From contig JAFSOW010000091.1 of the NCBI GenBank assembly GCA_017443165.1, forward strand, positions 1 to 13,737: a stretch of DNA of 13,737 nt, given 5' to 3'. Source of the stretch: Acidaminococcaceae bacterium (GTDB lineage: Bacteria; Bacillota; Negativicutes; Acidaminococcales; Acidaminococcaceae). The notes under the pieces were generated by a model, which was given only the letters and a program-made list of their open reading frames with translations, searched no databases and had not been told where the DNA came from. Shown here one piece after another: positions 4,885 to 12,971 of the stretch. How positions within the stretch are numbered: position 1 is the first letter of the stretch; each line of letters starts with the position of its first letter. Made by a program: the position numbers and the translations under genes.

Positions 4885-4984
4885 CAATTGACCATAGAGA
4901 GTGCGCGAGAGACAAGCTCTTTGACCGCACAGCAACCTGGCCGTAATACGGTTAAGGTGCTAAAGCTTGTATGATGGGAGATTG
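4885..4984 (+). promoter_or_regulatory. SAM-I (S-box) riboswitch aptamer
   Basis: The conserved S-box core is readable. AGAGAG follows the P1 5' strand (4896-4901). Then comes a kink-turn-type element 'GAGAGAC..GCTC..TGAC', then GCAACC (4932-4937), a P3 hairpin GCCGT-AAT-ACGGT, and AAGGTGCTAA (4954-4963). P1 is CAAT-TGA-CCAT (4885-4895) pairing with ATGG-GAG-ATTG (4974-4984). It departs from consensus in the P2 and P4 regions (AGAGA for AGGGA, and AGCTT where AATCC is usual). Known S-boxes bind S-adenosylmethionine and switch off methionine or SAM genes, so an HTH gene downstream is unusual. The 3' strand of P1 overlaps the antiterminator, as expected for transcriptional control. Confidence 0.8.
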
Positions 4985-5056: not shown

Positions 5057-5087
5057 CCCCCAAAGTATTGAAAGGAGTGATTTGACT

Positions 5088-5423
5088 ATGGTAGAAACTT
5101 TCACACAAATGCTGCTTCGCTTTATGGAGGAACGGAAGATCACCCGGGCCGGGTTGTATAAAGATGCCGACATAGACCGCAAACTGATTTACAAAATTCT
5201 GAAACAAAAGGACTACCAGCCAAAGAAAGGGACTGCGGTACGGCTTGCGCTGGGACTGCGGCTTTCCCTGGAAGAAACGAAAGCATTGCTGGAGGCCGCG
5301 GGATTCGCTTTGTCCCGCAGCATCCGGAAAGACTGTGTGATTTCCGATTGCATCGCCCGGAACAGGGGGACAGTATGGGAGGTGAACCGTGTGCTGAGAG
5401 CCCGTGGTCTGGGGGATATATAA
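5088..5423 (+). CDS. Small HTH-like (XRE-type) regulator, possibly linked to ADP-ribose systems
   Basis: This is a 111-residue soluble protein. Residues 2-75 look like an all-helical lambda-repressor/XRE-type domain, with ETFTQMLLRFMEE, a recognition-helix-like 'DIDRKLIYKILKQKDYQPKK' (28-47) and 'AVRLALGLRLSLEETKALLEAAGFALS' (50-76). The C-terminal tail, 'KDCVISDCIA...WEVNRVLRARGL', matches the tail of the same family. From memory, this family, with its IDRKLFSKI-type motif, occurs alone or fused to macro domains; that should be checked. The ATG at 5088 is preferred over a TTG at 5082 because GGAG (5074-5077) is ten bases upstream of the ATG but only four from the TTG. The S-box leader lies immediately upstream, so expression should rise when SAM is low. 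It is probably DNA-binding. It could regulate the shared palindromes, but nothing here proves it. Confidence 0.8.
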   Translation: MVETFTQMLLRFMEERKITRAGLYKDADIDRKLIYKILKQKDYQPKKGTAVRLALGLRLSLEETKALLEAAGFALSRSIRKDCVISDCIARNRGTVWEVNRVLRARGLGDI

Positions 5424-5471: not shown

Positions 5472-5516
5472 TTGTCGCCCGGGAGGCGACCACTTTTTTC
5501 CGGTATGCAGTACAAT
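5472..5516 (+). promoter_or_regulatory. Promoter with shared palindrome, copy 2
   Basis: Arms GTCGC (5474-5478) and GCGAC (5486-5490) are separated by seven bases. GACCAC lies at the -35 position (5488-5493), followed by a 17-base spacer and the -10 box TACAAT (5511-5516). Transcription would begin near 5523, about 33 bases before the alpha-CTD-like gene. The reading frame of that gene is open through this element, but the element is too similar to the other two promoters to be coding. Confidence 0.75.
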
Positions 5517-5555
5517 GAATTTGAAAGGCGGGAACGGTTACCGCAAGGAGGTAAG

Positions 5556-6146
5556 GTGGAAGTGCAACAGGATTTATTACAGACAGACATGACAGACAAA
5601 ACAGAAGCAGCAAGGCGTTTTCTGGAAGAAGCGCTGGCGGATTTCAGAAAAGGCAGGCTGCAGGAAGCGGCAGAAAAGATGACAGTTTCGGGCACGCTCG
5701 TGCGGGAGATGATCGGTTTCATTAAATGGGAAGAATTGAACCGCCCGGTTCAGATTACGGCCGACGCAACATTCCGGCACCGCCCCGAACGTCATGTAAT
5801 GTGGTATGAGCTGAAAGAGAAATATCTGTCGGAACGGGAACACAGGAACCACTCGCTGAACACGGAAAAGACTGCCGGCGCATTGCCGGAAAAGATTCCG
5901 GAAAGAGAAACGCAGCAGGAAGATCTGTTGTCACAGGTTTGTATCGAGGAGCTGGGACTTTCGTTGCGTGCCGAAAACTGCCTGCACCGCGTCGGAATCG
6001 AAACCGTCGGGCAGCTGACGGCAAAAACGGCAGGCGAGCTGAGCATGATCCGGAACTTCGGGCAGAAATGTCTGGCGGAAGTAAGGGAAAAGCTGGCAGA
6101 GAAAAACCTGACGCTGCGTGAAGAAGAAAACAAAGAGAAGACCTGA
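5556..6146 (+). CDS. Stand-alone RNA polymerase alpha-CTD-like domain protein
   Basis: This is a 196-residue protein. Residues about 128-188 match the C-terminal domain of the RNA polymerase alpha subunit: 'CIEELGLSLRAENCLHRVGIETVGQL...LSMIRNFGQKCLAEVREKL'. Aligned to E. coli alpha, the DNA-contact positions R265, N268, G296 and K298 are kept (R138, N141, G169, K171), while S299 is replaced by C172. The first about 125 residues are charged and helical and are unrecognised; they are not the alpha N-terminal domain. The start is uncertain. GTG 5556 is four bases and GTG 5562 ten bases after AAGGAGG (5545-5551), and ATG 5589 is too far away. It is the first gene of a likely operon with the vWA gene 94 bases downstream. 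In alpha, this domain binds UP-element DNA and activators, so a transcriptional or nucleic-acid-binding role is inferred. Confidence 0.8.
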   Translation: MEVQQDLLQTDMTDKTEAARRFLEEALADFRKGRLQEAAEKMTVSGTLVREMIGFIKWEELNRPVQITADATFRHRPERHVMWYELKEKYLSEREHRNHSLNTEKTAGALPEKIPERETQQEDLLSQVCIEELGLSLRAENCLHRVGIETVGQLTAKTAGELSMIRNFGQKCLAEVREKLAEKNLTLREEENKEKT

Positions 6147-6240: not shown

Positions 6241-8112
6241 ATGAAATTTAAGCACCTGATCAACAAATCGAAAGAGACCCGCAGAAAGTATGAATACTAC
6301 CTCGGTCTGGGCTATTCCGAGCATGCGGCCAAAGTACTGAGCGTAGTAACCTATGGTGATGAGAAGCTTGTATTTCTCGTTAAACAGCTTGGCAGGAAGA
6401 ATGTGATGGAGGAGCTGTATGCCTGGCTGCAAGAGAGAAAAGAAAAGACTCCGGGAGAGGCAATAGAAGCGTTTTATGAGGAGAAGCACCCCCGCCCTGC
6501 ATACGAAGAGGAGCGGAGGCTCGGATGTTCATGCGCCGGTATACGTATGCCGGGCAGCGCTCCCAGGGGCGGTGCTTCCGGAAGATTTGCGGCGAAGAAA
6601 GCAGCCCCTCCGATCGAGGTTGAGGAAAACGTAGTGATGTGCTGTGAAGCGTGTGAGGAAATTCCTTCCTGGATGGCCGATGAGGCTGACTCCGAACTCA
6701 TGGAAGATTTATCCACGGATTCGTACGAACCCATTGAAGAAAAAGACGCGAAGAACGTCTTTACGGCGCCCACTTCCACGTTCCGTATGACCACCAGTAA
6801 CGCATCCATGGGCATCGTCTTTAATCAGATCCGGTCTGAACGCCGTGTCAACATGGATCAGGTCCGCATTGAGGAAGTCCTCAACTATTTCGATTATGAA
6901 GCAAAAATTCCGACGGACGCAAAGTTCGCGATCACTACGGAACTGATGGAAAAGAAGGGGAACAAAAAGGTCCTCTTCATTGACGCCCAGGCCGCCCATG
7001 AGAAAAAGGAACACCAGAACATCATCCTGCTCCTGGATACGTCGGGCAGTATGTGTTCGAATGATGAAGTTACACAGGAAGCCATCGCGACAATCTTCAG
7101 CAAGCTCAGGGCAGGCGACCGCGTCAGCCTGGTTACCTACAGCTCAAAAGACCATACGTACTTTAAGGGCTTCGAGATTAAAGATGAACAGTCCAAAGAG
7201 GAACTGATGGGCATCATTCTCGGCATTGAGATTGAGGGTTGCACCTGGGGCTCTGCCGGAATTAACACGGCGTATGCCATCGGGGAGAAGTTTTACAACC
7301 CTGACTGGAACAACCAGGTGATCCTGATCACCGACGGCGACCTGAATTTCGGCATTACGGACAAGCACGGGCTGAAGGGGCTGATCGAAGAAAAGAAAAA
7401 GAGCAACCTGTTCCTGTCGGTCATCGGCACGGGCCTTTACAACTACAAGGACGACAATCTGGAAGTCCTCGCGAAACACGGCAACGGTACCTACTGCGTG
7501 GTGAACAATCTGGACGATGTGGACGAGTCCATTAACCGGCGCTTCATCGCCCTCACCAATATTGTGGCGAAGGACGTCAAGGCGCAGGTTGAGTTTAACC
7601 CGCGTTTCGTAAAATCCTACCGGCTTCTCGGCTATGAAAACCGCCAGCTGAACCACGAGGATTTTAAAAATGACGCCGTAATCTCCGAACCTTACGGCAG
7701 CGGCGGGCATGGCATCGCCCTTTACGAACTGGAGATGAACGAAGGGGAAGATCCTGCGGTTACTACGGATCTGAAATACCAGAAGCCCGTGCTGACGGAT
7801 TCTGACGAACTGGGTTCCGTGTCCATCCGTTATAAAGAGCCGCTGAACGATAAAAGTTCCGAAATCGGGACGGCAGTTTACAATAAAAACCACAGCACGC
7901 AGAATGTGCAGCTGGCCTATTTGCTCTATTGTCTTTCCGAAAAACTCCGGGGCTCGGATAAACTGGACGAGTATGACGGGCAGTTCCTTGACGTTATGAT
8001 CACCAGTGAATTCTACAAGAACTTCTCCGGCCCCAACAGGGAGAAACTGGAAATGCTTCTGGATGCATACAAATTCAACGCGGAACGGGAAGAAGCGGAC
8101 GAAGATCTGTGA
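6241..8112 (+). CDS. YfbK-like von Willebrand factor A domain protein, cytoplasmic form
   Basis: This is a 623-residue protein. Residues about 175-222 match the segment that precedes the vWA domain in the YfbK family ('TSTFRMTTSNASMGIVFNQI...VRIEEVLNYFDYE'). The vWA domain spans about 258-440 with an intact metal-ion-dependent adhesion site: DTSGS (D266, S268, S270), T335 and D365 (ITDGD). The tail resembles the YfbK C-terminal domain ('YKEP...AYLLYCLSEKLRGSDKLDEYDGQFLDVM'). Unlike classical YfbK there is no lipoprotein signal. Instead there is an N-terminal helical segment (1-70) and a low-complexity linker carrying C96, C98, C134, C135 and C138. The ATG at 6241 has AAGGAG eight bases upstream. 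It probably shares the copy-2 promoter with the alpha-CTD-like gene. vWA proteins bind partners through a divalent metal; the partner here is unknown. Confidence 0.88.
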   Translation: MKFKHLINKSKETRRKYEYYLGLGYSEHAAKVLSVVTYGDEKLVFLVKQLGRKNVMEELYAWLQERKEKTPGEAIEAFYEEKHPRPAYEEERRLGCSCAGIRMPGSAPRGGASGRFAAKKAAPPIEVEENVVMCCEACEEIPSWMADEADSELMEDLSTDSYEPIEEKDAKNVFTAPTSTFRMTTSNASMGIVFNQIRSERRVNMDQVRIEEVLNYFDYEAKIPTDAKFAITTELMEKKGNKKVLFIDAQAAHEKKEHQNIILLLDTSGSMCSNDEVTQEAIATIFSKLRAGDRVSLVTYSSKDHTYFKGFEIKDEQSKEELMGIILGIEIEGCTWGSAGINTAYAIGEKFYNPDWNNQVILITDGDLNFGITDKHGLKGLIEEKKKSNLFLSVIGTGLYNYKDDNLEVLAKHGNGTYCVVNNLDDVDESINRRFIALTNIVAKDVKAQVEFNPRFVKSYRLLGYENRQLNHEDFKNDAVISEPYGSGGHGIALYELEMNEGEDPAVTTDLKYQKPVLTDSDELGSVSIRYKEPLNDKSSEIGTAVYNKNHSTQNVQLAYLLYCLSEKLRGSDKLDEYDGQFLDVMITSEFYKNFSGPNREKLEMLLDAYKFNAEREEADEDL

Positions 8113-8136
8113 TAATAACGGGAAGATGCAGCAATC

Positions 8137-8161
8137 GTGAAGCCGCAACTTGCGGCTTCAC
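8137..8161 (+). other. Perfect 11-bp hairpin after the vWA gene
   Basis: GTGAAGCCGCA (8137-8147) and TGCGGCTTCAC (8151-8161) are perfectly complementary around a three-base loop. A-rich rather than T-rich sequence follows on the plus strand, so it is not a classical terminator. It may act as an RNA-end stabiliser or as a terminator aided by other factors. Confidence 0.55.
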
Positions 8162-8258
8162 AAAAAGAGTATTTATATAATTTAAATGAAAACAAAAAAG
8201 AAAAATGCAAATAATAAACAATAAAACAAATAAAAAATATAAATTACAAAATAAATGC
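8162..8258. promoter_or_regulatory. A/T-rich tract, probable UP-element region
   Basis: This stretch of nearly 100 bases is overwhelmingly A and T with many A-tracts, directly upstream of the consensus promoter at 8259. Such tracts bind the alpha-CTD of RNA polymerase and strengthen transcription. No gene is seen in it. Confidence 0.5.
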
Positions 8259-8287
8259 TTGACAAAATAAAAAACAATTGCTATAAT
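8259..8287 (+). promoter_or_regulatory. Perfect-consensus sigma-A/sigma-70 promoter
   Basis: TTGACA (8259-8264), a 17-base spacer and TATAAT (8282-8287). All twelve hexamer positions match consensus, so constitutively strong transcription of the downstream RNA (start near 8294) is expected. Confidence 0.92.
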
Positions 8288-8293
8288 TACCAT

Positions 8294-8545
8294 AGTGAGA
8301 TTCATAAAGGCACGAACAGCAATATTCCATATACATTTGGAATGTCACGGCAATGTGTCTGCGGACCGGCCCTGATACCTTGGACGGTGCCTTGTGGAAT
8401 GTCACTGTATGTAAAGGCGCTAACAGCAATCATTGCCTATATCTGGCCCTGTTTTTCAGAGGAACCGGTTCGGCGTTCTCCGGAACGCTTGCAAATACGC
8501 GCCTTGTAAAAAAGTGCGGGCGGATTCCCTCCCGCACTTTTCTTT
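8294..8545 (+). ncRNA. Novel-looking ncRNA or leader with two tandem structured domains
   Basis: The RNA of about 250 nt runs from the consensus promoter to a strong terminator and contains no plausible gene. It has two domains. Domain 1 (8307-8393) is closed by AAGGCAC/GTGCCTT; domain 2 (8414-8505) is closed by AAGGCGC/GCGCCTT. The closing helices differ by a compensatory A-U to G-C change, and both 5' strands are followed, after one base, by the same nine bases AACAGCAAT (8315-8323, 8422-8430). Domain 1 holds hairpin ATTCCA/TGGAAT; domain 2 holds GCGTTC-TCCG-GAACGC, a stable UNCG-type tetraloop. TGGAATGTCAC occurs twice (8338-8348, 8395-8405), so ATTCCA can pair locally or with the inter-domain linker. 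It lies directly upstream of a TROVE/Ro60-like gene, where bacterial Y RNAs are known to lie. It could be Y-RNA-like or a tandem riboswitch. I do not recognise it as a known class. Confidence 0.7.
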
Positions 8546-8547
8546 CT
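8510..8547 (+). terminator. Strong intrinsic terminator of the tandem-domain RNA
   Basis: A perfect 11-bp stem, AAAAGTGCGGG (8510-8520) / CCCGCACTTTT (8531-8541), with a ten-base loop is followed by CTTTCT. It lies about 110 bases before the DUF2828 gene start, so it either ends a separate RNA or controls read-through into that gene. Confidence 0.9.
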
Positions 8548-8655
8548 CAGGAACCTTTGGGGAAATGCGTTTAATCCGTGTTTCCTTTGGCTATGATGTA
8601 GAAAAATAACTTGTTCTCCAAGGAATAAACGTTTGATGTAATCAGGAGGAAAATC
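8548..8655 (+). promoter_or_regulatory. Short region between the ncRNA and DUF2828 gene, possible weak promoter
   Basis: There is a candidate -10 TATGAT (8593-8598) with GTTTAA 17 bases upstream (8570-8575). If real, it would let the protein gene be expressed independently of the tandem-domain RNA. The -35 is poor. An AGGAGG site precedes the start codon at 8656. Confidence 0.3.
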
Positions 8656-10146
8656 ATGGACTTATTACACGCTATCGAAGACGCTGCCAATAAAACCCAT
8701 ACCGAAAACGGAGCCGTGACCCTGGAAACGACGGGGGACTGCTGCCTGGACCTGTTTGCCACAGTCGGCGCGCTGCGCCATGTGTCCGAAGAGGAAATCT
8801 GCCTGCGCTTCCAGCGCGCCTGGGCGGAAGATCGGGATATCGCCATGAAGATCCTCTTCTTCGCCCGCGACGTGCGGGGCGGGCTGGGGGAACGCCGCGC
8901 CTTCCGGGCCATCACCCGCTGGCTGGCAGACTACGCCCATACCTCCGTTGTCAAAAACATCAGCAATATCCCGGAATACGGCCGCTACGACGACCTGCTG
9001 AGCCTGCTGTCCACCTCCTGTGAAGCCGATGTGTTGCGCTTCATCGCGGCACAGTGGAAGAAAGACATGGAAGCGCTGCAGACCGGGGAACCTGTGTCCC
9101 TGCTGGGCAAATGGCTGCCCTCTGTCAACGCGTCCGGCGCAAAAACCGTCGCGCTGGCGAAAAAAGTTGCAAAGTCCCTGAAACTCCGCCCTGCGGAATA
9201 CCGTAAGTCGTTAACCGCATTGCGCAAACGCATCCACATTCTGGAAAACGATCTGCGGGTAAAAGAATACAACTTCGACTACGCGAAACTTCCCTCTAAA
9301 GCCATGTACAAATACCGCGCGGCTTTCCAGCGAAACGACGGGAAGCGGTATCAGGAGTTCCTGGGCAACGTGGAAAAAGGCGAGGCGCAGATGCATACGG
9401 ACAGCCTGACTCCGTACGACATTGTTGCGTCTGTGCTTGACAATTCCTCCCGCTGGAAACCGGACATCAAGGCAGCAAATAAAAATGAACGCAAAGCGCT
9501 GGACGTGACCTGGAAGGCGCTGCCGGACTACACCTGTGGGGAAAACGCGCTGGTAGTGGTGGACGGTTCCGGTTCCATGTACGGTTACGGCAACCCCGTG
9601 CCCGCAGCCGTAGCCATGTCCCTGGGCATCTACTACGCGGAACGTAACCGGGGCCAGCTCCGCAACCACTTCATCACGTTCTCCGAACGTCCGCGGTTGG
9701 TTCAGATCAAAGGAAAGGACATCGTCGACAAAGTCATGTACTGCGAAAGCTACAACGAATGTGCCAATACGGACATCGAAGCAGTCTTCCGCCTGATCCT
9801 TACCGCTGCAAAAAAACATCAGGTGCCGCAGGATGAGATGCCCACCCGCATCTACATCGTCTCAGACATGGAGTTCGACTGCTGTGCGGAAAACGCAAGC
9901 CTGACGAACTTCCAGAACATGGAGCAGATGTACCGGAAGGCCGGATACAAACTGCCGGAAGTGGTGTTCTGGAACGTAGCCAGCCGCAATCAGCAGCAGC
10001 CGGTGAAGAAAAACCAGCAGGGTGTGGCCCTGGTCAGCGGGTGCACGCCGCGTCTCTTCGAGATGCTGGCAGGGGGCAACCTGTCGCCCTACGCCTGCAT
10101 GATGGACGTCCTGAACCGGGACCGGTACAAGGATATCGTAGCGTAA
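8656..10146 (+). CDS. DUF2828-family protein: TROVE-like helical module plus vWA domain (Ro60-like)
   Basis: This is a 496-residue soluble protein. The N-terminal about 250 residues are helical and include 'KILFFARDVRGGLGERRAFRAI' (65-86), like the R-D-x-R-G-G-x-G-E-R-R motif of TROVE/DUF2828 proteins, and 'LPSKAMYKYRAAFQRNDGKRYQEFL' (212-236), typical of DUF2828. A vWA domain follows at about 296-480 with a full metal site: DGSGS (D303, S305, S307), T372 and D404 (VSDME). The architecture parallels Ro60, a helical RNA-binding ring plus vWA, which binds misfolded RNAs and Y RNAs. The ATG at 8656 has AGGAGG six bases upstream. The structured ncRNA immediately upstream supports an RNA-binding role, but RNA binding is inferred, not shown. 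It is intact, monocistronic and convergent with the ferredoxin-like operon. Confidence 0.85.
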   Translation: MDLLHAIEDAANKTHTENGAVTLETTGDCCLDLFATVGALRHVSEEEICLRFQRAWAEDRDIAMKILFFARDVRGGLGERRAFRAITRWLADYAHTSVVKNISNIPEYGRYDDLLSLLSTSCEADVLRFIAAQWKKDMEALQTGEPVSLLGKWLPSVNASGAKTVALAKKVAKSLKLRPAEYRKSLTALRKRIHILENDLRVKEYNFDYAKLPSKAMYKYRAAFQRNDGKRYQEFLGNVEKGEAQMHTDSLTPYDIVASVLDNSSRWKPDIKAANKNERKALDVTWKALPDYTCGENALVVVDGSGSMYGYGNPVPAAVAMSLGIYYAERNRGQLRNHFITFSERPRLVQIKGKDIVDKVMYCESYNECANTDIEAVFRLILTAAKKHQVPQDEMPTRIYIVSDMEFDCCAENASLTNFQNMEQMYRKAGYKLPEVVFWNVASRNQQQPVKKNQQGVALVSGCTPRLFEMLAGGNLSPYACMMDVLNRDRYKDIVA

Positions 10147-12170: not shown

Positions 12171-12971
12171 ATGTTAGGTGCAATTATCGGTGATATGTCC
12201 GGCTCCCGGTTTGAGTGGGACAATATAAAAACTAAAAATTTCGAACTGCTCAACGAAGAATGTTTCCCGACAGACGACAGCATCATGACGCTGGCAATTG
12301 CCAAAACGATCCTTGAATGCAACGGGGATTATGCAGCGATAGAAGAAAAAGTCATAGGGAATATGCAAATGTTAGGGCGCAGCTATCCTGATGCAGGATA
12401 TGGGGCAAAATTTTACGACTGGCTTTTTGAAGAAAATCCGAAACCTTACCGCAGCTTCGGCAACGGCGCGGCCATGCGGGTAAGCCCCTGCGGTTTTGCG
12501 GCCGGAACGATGGAAGAGGCCATCGCTTTAGCAAAGGCGGTCACCAAAGTCACCCACAACCACCGTGAAGGAATGAAAGCGGCCGAGGCGGTGACGGTGG
12601 CGATCTTTATGGCGAGAAGCGGCAAAAAACTGGCCGAAATCAGGGAACATATCGAAAAAACCTACTATAAGATAGATTTTACTTTGGACCAGATCCGCCC
12701 GACCTATACGTTTGACGTAACCTGTCAGGGAAGCGTTCCCCAGGCCTTCGAAGCCTTTTTCGAATCCACCGGTTTTGAAGATGCCATCCGCAACGCCGTT
12801 TCCATCGGCGGGGACAGCGATACCATTGCGGCCATTACGGGCAGCATGGCCGAAGCGTATTACGGCATACCGTCCGGAATCCGGGAACGGGCGCTGGCGT
12901 TTTTGGACGACAACCTTCTCATAATTGCGGAAAAATTTGAAAAGAGATTCGGGCAGAAAACAGAGATTTAA
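12171..12971 (+). CDS. ADP-ribosylglycohydrolase (ARH/DraG family)
   Basis: This is a 266-residue cytoplasmic enzyme of the family that removes ADP-ribose from modified proteins or nucleic acids, or cleaves related ADP-ribose linkages, using Mg2+ or Mn2+. Signature elements are present in order: 'GAIIGDMSGSRFE' (3-15), metal-binding TDDS (34-37), 'GNGAAMRVSP' (97-106), THNH (128-131) and 'IGGDSDTIAAITGSMAEAYYGIP' (212-234) with D215, D217 and T218. The usual TDDT is TDDS here, a conservative change. Length is normal and it looks intact. The ATG at 12171 has AAGGAGG eight bases upstream, behind the copy-3 palindrome promoter. The substrate is not predictable from sequence. The family and fold are confident; its link to the rest of the cluster is inferred from the shared promoter. 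Confidence 0.93.
   Translation: MLGAIIGDMSGSRFEWDNIKTKNFELLNEECFPTDDSIMTLAIAKTILECNGDYAAIEEKVIGNMQMLGRSYPDAGYGAKFYDWLFEENPKPYRSFGNGAAMRVSPCGFAAGTMEEAIALAKAVTKVTHNHREGMKAAEAVTVAIFMARSGKKLAEIREHIEKTYYKIDFTLDQIRPTYTFDVTCQGSVPQAFEAFFESTGFEDAIRNAVSIGGDSDTIAAITGSMAEAYYGIPSGIRERALAFLDDNLLIIAEKFEKRFGQKTEI

Follow-up and report, generated by a model that had tools for sequence, protein, structure and literature searches.

A two-module RNA encoded beside a Ro60-like DUF2828 protein and its relatives in bacteria and phages

The 13,737-nucleotide (nt) stretch of DNA analysed here (the window; contig JAFSOW010000091.1) comes from a Succiniclasticum genome (assembly G000, 73% complete). At 8294-8545, between the gene for a YfbK-type vWA protein and a gene of the DUF2828 family, it carries a 252-nt RNA built of two modules, each closed by a seven-base-pair helix and each containing the motif AACAGCAAT. 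We propose that this RNA is probably bound by the product of the downstream gene, a predicted Ro60-like ring protein, as a Y-RNA-like ribonucleoprotein (RNP) that serves in the quality control or repair of RNA, probably tRNA. On the sequence evidence the two genes are a real, conserved RNA-protein pair. We put forward with confidence that RNA and protein belong together, the most certain step of the proposal; an involvement in tRNA repair is its least certain step and is offered tentatively. Animals have Ro60 proteins and Y RNAs, which are also known from a few percent of bacteria. The pair described here likely works as Ro60 and Y RNA do, while lying outside TROVE and YrlA as these families are defined by sequence.

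Results

Structure of the two-module RNA

The RNA interval begins a few bases 3' of a sigma-70 type promoter (8259-8287, forward strand, as are all features of this RNA and its gene), in which TTGACA and TATAAT, with an extended TG, are separated by 17 nt and match the consensus at 12 of 12 positions. Five promoter-like sites occur on the two strands of 8100-8700, against a shuffle mean of 1.9, and the other four score only 9 or 10 of 12. Module A (8307-8393) is closed by the helix AAGGCAC (8307-8313)/GTGCCTT (8387-8393), with AACAGCAAT at 8315-8323 and a variable insert. An outer helix surrounds it (8294-8406), in which 8294-8303 pairs with 8397-8406 at nine of ten positions with one mismatch; this helix belongs to the predicted fold and recurs in relatives. 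Module B (8414-8505) repeats the arrangement with the helix AAGGCGC (8414-8420)/GCGCCTT (8499-8505), AACAGCAAT at 8422-8430 and a variable insert that contains the hairpin GCGUUC-UCCG-GAACGC, so that an A-U pair in the closing helix of A is replaced by G-C in that of B. The RNA ends in an apparent intrinsic terminator (8510-8545; AAAAGTGCGGG...CCCGCACTTTTCTTT), with a hairpin at 8510-8541, a T-rich tail and a folding energy of -20.9 kcal/mol; an automated terminator pattern called none in the region of this RNA. The ribosome-binding site of the DUF2828 gene, AGGAGG, follows at 8644-8649. From promoter and terminator we infer that the RNA is transcribed.

The predicted fold of the 252-nt RNA is more stable than all 200 dinucleotide shuffles (z -3.9), a value inflated by the terminator, and for this reason we give more weight to comparative evidence. 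Both modules, the promoter and the terminator recur in four aligned relatives. At one of the related loci (numbered here with the prefix L, as genomes are with G), L011, the DUF2828 protein is 80% identical to that of the window; the inserts have drifted there, whereas both closing helices with their motif, the promoter hexamers and the terminator (-22.1 kcal/mol) are kept, and the helix of module A has changed in a compensatory manner from AAGGCAC/GTGCCTT to AAGGCGC/GCGCCTT. An earlier note on this DNA, made from the sequence alone, had described two domains with covarying seven-base-pair closing helices and a shared motif, a perfect-consensus promoter and a strong terminator, and each of these is upheld. 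A covariance model of the module (R1), trained with the window's modules among others, matches the window at 8307-8395 and 8414-8507. No Rfam family matched 8294-8545 in a scan of the window with E values up to 5, and hence no known riboswitch, a comparison that the earlier note had called for.

The DUF2828 protein has a predicted Ro60 fold

The gene at 8656-10146 encodes a protein of 496 residues with the Pfam domains DUF2828 and DUF7788 and a match to PHROG 850, annotated 'RNA-binding protein', at 1e-130. In a Foldseek search its AlphaFold2 model (mean predicted local distance difference test score, pLDDT, 89.6) has Ro60 as by far the best match (7e-10), and in structural alignment against the PDB the top 10 entries are all Ro60, Rsr or TROVE proteins, the best spanning residues 9-475. 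The protein is accordingly predicted to form, as Ro60 does, a ring from helical repeats, linked to a vWA domain. The metal site of the vWA domain (DxSxS, T, D), formed by D303, S305, S307, T372 and D404, is invariant in 50 aligned relatives. When the earlier note called the protein TROVE-like it was right as to predicted fold and vWA site, and not as to membership of the TROVE sequence family. Relatives of the protein are encoded in 682 of 50,697 phage records searched with tblastn. Literature that mentions DUF2828, judged by title, concerns plants (potato, poplar, wheat and Casuarina), a hint that the family may extend to plants.

The module accompanies DUF2828 genes in bacteria and phages

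Conservation of the RNA upstream of homologues had been named beforehand as one test of the pair, and such conservation was found. We examined 23 bacterial DUF2828 loci from the genome_contigs collection and 80 viral loci from IMG/VR (the best 80 of 598), with a detector that fixes CAGC, the pairing of the strands and the final U(U)G. At least one module lies within 1 kb upstream of the gene in 22 of the 23 bacterial loci (antisense strand, 1/23), and in the remaining one, L018, variants of the module are recognisable by eye. The corresponding count for the viral loci is 48 of 80, compared with 1/80 for the antisense strand and 12/400 for shuffled sequences. The 1 kb directly downstream of the gene scores in 20/80 viral loci; we read these matches as genuine modules and not as background, given 3/80 on the antisense strand within 3 kb downstream. 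Within 3 kb on either side, a module was found in 59/80 viral loci versus 10/80 antisense, or 132 modules, compared with 10 on the antisense strand and 18 in a single shuffled set; 24/80 loci have modules downstream.

Since the modules had been chosen by their pairing, the covariation in our alignment A4, which is 94.8% paired and in which five of the seven pairs change on both sides, is partly circular. The unbiased measure is a pairing-blind permutation test, in which every upstream CAGCAA was taken and the 7-mer preceding it checked for its own complement downstream, with 200 permutations. The complement was present in 127 of 195 cases at the 80 viral loci (permutation mean 17, maximum 26) and in 35 of 38 cases at 20 of the 23 bacterial loci (mean 15, maximum 23). 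The antisense, shuffle and permutation controls rule out chance structure.

Of 13 selected phage and plasmid records, eight have sense-strand matches upstream (the one in L044, with its weak motif, is possibly due to chance), two have matches downstream only and three have none. In Escherichia phage EC6 four modules (L043:4700-5500) lie among the tRNA genes of a cluster downstream of the DUF2828 gene, interleaved with them as if tRNA processing released them, and Staphylococcus phage S-CoN_Ph1 has three modules directly 3' of the gene.

R1 was also run on whole genomes, scoring up to 80 candidates per genome in the family and up to 11 in the phylum, so that misses are possible; matches in genomes that supplied training modules, among them the window's and those of L011, L012 and L052, are there by construction. 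Among 59 genomes of the family, R1 found a match in five of the six with a DUF2828 gene and in none of the 53 without, and modules were found on reading in the sixth (G004). Among 398 genomes of the phylum the figures were 5/7 and 1/391. Of the two genomes that R1 missed, G403 yields two modules with the standard detector (L054) and G151 two CAGCC variants that only a looser detector picks up (L056). The sole match in a genome without DUF2828 (G379, 31.9 bits, at the ftsA/ftsZ locus) looks like chance. Twelve phage and plasmid records gave 12 matches; 11 are no more than about 2.6 kb from the DUF2828 gene, and the remaining one, a weak match, is about 50 kb away.

A constant handle with interchangeable inserts

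From 160 distinct modules we dropped five that overlap tRNAs called by ARAGORN and five whose strands are separated by more than 130 nt. The 150 remaining, not all independent since several Clostridia loci are closely related, have the consensus A-A-R-R-Y-N-C, one or two bases, N-CAGCAA-W, an insert with an A-rich end, the complementary strand and U(U)G. The strands are 22-119 nt apart (median 51, motif included). Judged by sequence, the two strands of the stem enclose an interchangeable part, and what is conserved is the stem with its motif, which we call the handle.

Roughly one third of the relatives' modules mimic part of a tRNA. A T arm is present in the insert of 34 of the 160 modules, compared with 0.2 in shuffles. 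Among 256 patterns of the form XYNNNZW for seven-nucleotide hairpin loops, CUNNNAA, the signature of an anticodon loop, is both the commonest and the most enriched, being present in 31/160 modules against 0.8 in 100 dinucleotide shuffles (maximum 3). Of these 31 loops, 28 have G or U at the wobble position (N34), as most bacterial anticodons do, against about half in shuffles. The leading 'anticodons' are GUU (9) and UUU (6). After filtering, 29 of the 150 modules have an anticodon arm, 29 a T arm and three both. Genuine tRNA genes are ruled out as the source of this mimicry, as the anticodon and T arms remain once the ARAGORN overlaps are dropped.

A few modules go further and have the order T arm, closed acceptor-like hairpin, D arm, which is circularly permuted as in YrlA and is clearest in L016 and L041. 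A script for the D arm flagged six of the 34 T-arm modules, of which three were accepted (one in L016, two in L041), and the same order was recognised by eye in a second module of L016, in a third of L041, and in L020, L087 and L105. The segment L041:2289-2425 folds as a single structure with anticodon arm, T arm, closed acceptor and D arm. At L092 (module 348 nt upstream) and L087 (1094 nt upstream), stems resembling the handle surround a tRNA-Ile, which ARAGORN reads in the normal, unpermuted order.

Relation to TROVE proteins and YrlA RNAs

The nearest known systems are bacterial Ro60 (Rsr) with YrlA and the Deinococcus Y RNA (RYPER; the rsr-yrlBA-rtcBA operon). In Deinococcus, according to PMC7790460 and PMC8394870, Y RNA tethers Rsr to PNPase. 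The DUF2828 loci resemble these systems in the ring of helical repeats with a vWA domain (here predicted), in the RNA gene beside the protein gene, in paired 5' and 3' ends around an internal loop, in the circularly permuted tRNA-like domain of some relatives and in the rtcB neighbour of many bacterial loci. They differ in that the protein is DUF2828 and not TROVE by sequence, the handle AAGRYRC-NN-ACAGCAA...GYRYCUUG stands in place of the YrlA stem, a locus may hold several modules whose inserts can be a small hairpin, an anticodon arm or as much as a permuted tRNA, and the Clostridia-type loci have a WYL regulator in place of RtcR. The earlier note's suggestion of a Ro60-Y-RNA-like pair is supported by the co-located RNA with paired ends and by the predicted Ro60-like fold, but the handle is not that of YrlA-like RNAs.

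The Rfam YrlA model (RF02553) matches two modules of Enterococcus phage EfV12-phi1 (L041) from end to end (45.2 and 34.3 bits) and, in part, one in L016 (41.6 bits), all sub-threshold; it does not match the window's modules. Nine genomes with canonical TROVE genes form a set disjoint from the DUF2828 genomes. YrlA-like RNAs with a different stem occur at seven of the nine TROVE loci, scoring 27.9-39.9 bits, below the Rfam cut-off. Use of the same handle by canonical TROVE genes was considered and rejected, none of the nine loci having an upstream module; two of these were weakly tested, L075 having 41 nt of upstream sequence and L067 having a frame of 124 residues at the match, with another frame taken as the start of the gene. 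At other positions in these nine loci the detector gave two sense matches and one antisense, and the looser detector gave chance-like matches in five; ACAGCAA without a module is present in the flanks of two of the YrlA-like RNAs (L071 and L074). The seven TROVE-side RNAs (L068, L069, L071-L075, all Bacillota) each have a T arm, and four (L069, L071, L074 and L075) have an anticodon arm with the loop CUGUUAA (GUU), from which it appears that the YrlA of Bacillota may imitate a permuted tRNA in its entirety, perhaps tRNA-Asn.

At the protein level the family has been annotated in phages as 'Ro-like RNA binding protein' (PHROG 850, 1e-130; for example gp53 of Mycobacterium phage LeBron); two of our 13 records are unannotated. 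Among RNAs, the feature tables of the 11 annotated phage and plasmid records list tRNAs, including one undetermined and one pseudo-tRNA, and no partner for the protein. Titles and abstract openings in openly licensed literature yielded no description of the DUF2828 modules, which is weak evidence of absence.

Neighbouring genes and other features of the window

With a single RtcB query at E <= 1e-5, confirmed by Pfam in the six cases tested, rtcB was found in 22 scanned loci, comprising 20 distinct DUF2828 loci (L051 and L167 are the same place) and one TROVE locus (L075). It is immediately 3' of the DUF2828 gene in 14 of the 23 genome_contigs loci, precedes it in L036, L045 and L051/L167, and lies nearby in L057, Listeria phage A511 (L040) and the IMG/VR locus L123. 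RtcB as an obligatory partner is ruled out for the window's genus by the family scan, which detected no rtcB in five of the six DUF2828 genomes, the window's among them. A divergent regulator stands upstream of the module-DUF2828 operon in 19 distinct loci (L017-L019, L021-L035 and L057), with a WYL domain confirmed in the two tested; in the sequences inspected, the repeats TTGGGGTT and AACCCC between regulator and operon are a possible operator.

The YfbK-type vWA gene directly upstream of the RNA occupies 6241-8112. Further off are genes for a protein of 224 residues with a single Pfam domain (RNA polymerase alpha C-terminal domain; 5472-6146) and, also by Pfam, an ADP-ribosylglycohydrolase family protein (12171-12971). 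A long hairpin at 522-553, with a weak match to Dictyoglomi-1 (18.1 of 150 bits), is perhaps a terminator between convergent genes. An S-adenosylmethionine (SAM) riboswitch at 4889-4980 (E 1.5e-9), upstream of a small helix-turn-helix-like open reading frame (5082-5423), was an unexpected neighbour; SAM riboswitches also occur in L011 and L030 and are unrelated to the modules.

Discussion

The recurrence of the handle beside DUF2828 genes, together with look-alikes of tRNA pieces in about a third of the modules, makes the RNA the likely partner of the protein in the handling or repair of damaged RNA. Several results weigh against this. On the protein side, the Pfam scan returned DUF2828 and DUF7788 only, without TROVE (PF05731), and sequence searches of the PDB, with the single sequence and with a 50-row profile, retrieved no Ro60 chain. 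The window's modules fold only modestly better than shuffles when taken singly (z -1.5 for A, -2.2 for B), their inserts have no clear T arm or anticodon arm on inspection, and 95 of the 150 filtered modules carry neither tRNA feature. All YrlA matches lie below the gathering score of 69 bits, the best relative module reaching 45.2. The association also has gaps: 21/80 viral loci lack a module within 3 kb, R1 finds one in only 6/12 phage and plasmid records, and none was found in Mycobacterium phage LeBron (L038, where no sense-strand module lies near the PHROG 850 gene), the Jeotgalibacillus plasmid (L046) or Vibrio phage PG216 (L047), with two antisense matches each in L038 and L043. As for rtcB, it is near the gene in only 1/80 IMG/VR loci (L123), and none was detected in the window's genome, at its 73% completeness, or in four of the family's five remaining genomes with DUF2828.

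Position alone would also suit a leader that acts in cis, the DUF2828 protein binding its own mRNA to control termination or translation, and 62 of the 102 upstream viral modules do lie within 250 nt of the start codon. A terminator separates RNA and gene in both the window and L011, where only about 30 nt remain between its hairpin and the start codon, so that the gene is probably read by readthrough. An autoregulatory site, however, would not need tRNA mimicry, nor does such a role fit modules among the tRNA genes of EC6, 3' of the gene in S-CoN_Ph1 and downstream in 24/80 viral loci; no anti-terminator pairing was evident by eye, no search aimed at one having been made. We consider this attenuator unlikely. 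Far less probable still is the tandem small-molecule riboswitch that the earlier note gave as its alternative. Tandem domains, a terminator and a leader position do resemble tandem riboswitches, yet the modules match none in Rfam, lie 3' of the gene or between tRNA genes at some loci, and track one protein family; an insert free in length (22-119 nt) and sequence within a conserved handle is the reverse of an aptamer.

A further proposal sharpens our preferred reading and is not its opposite. Modules with anticodon arms or permuted tRNAs might be decoys for anticodon nucleases or other enzymes that damage tRNA, absorbing them or being sacrificed to them, with RtcB, where present, resealing what had been cut. 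CUNNNAA as the most enriched loop pattern (31/160 against 0.8), GUU and UUU as the commonest 'anticodons' and the setting of the EC6 modules point this way. So do reports, as summarised in PMC10264068 and PMC11555353, of phage tRNAs that evade tRNA-targeting defences, and the proposal, given in PMC7790460, that YrlA is a competitive inhibitor of an anticodon nuclease. On the other hand, the anticodon arm is present in only 29/150 filtered modules, most of the rest having neither feature, and is absent from those of the window, and rtcB is rare near the viral genes. We regard the decoy as possible, if somewhat improbable.

In the RNP that we favour, the handle, comprising the seven-base-pair stem, ACAGCAA on its 5' side and the A-rich stretch before the 3' strand, would be the site of protein binding, and one RNA could thus carry two rings. 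The terminator would make the RNA more abundant than the mRNA, and each module would present one effector domain. The particle would then handle broken or misfolded RNA, most likely tRNA, as might be expected where rtcB lies nearby, as it does in many bacteria.

The finding provides a partner RNA family for a large protein family of which little has been described (682 phage records and, from one scan, 23 bacterial loci). It also offers a simple sequence handle with which to search for such RNAs and, in tRNA repair and phage-host conflict, a place to look for their function. Speculatively, DUF2828 proteins may represent a second, phage-rich branch of Ro60-type RNPs, whose RNAs would be series of exchangeable cartridges on a common protein-binding handle, many of them tRNA mimics (permuted tRNA elbows and separate anticodon arms, mainly GUU and UUU). 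These would act as a repairable decoy and surveillance system against immunity that cuts tRNAs, with RtcB as a partner in many of the bacteria. Phages recorded with Escherichia coli K-12 MG1655 as host encode a DUF2828 protein, and these ideas are therefore directly testable.
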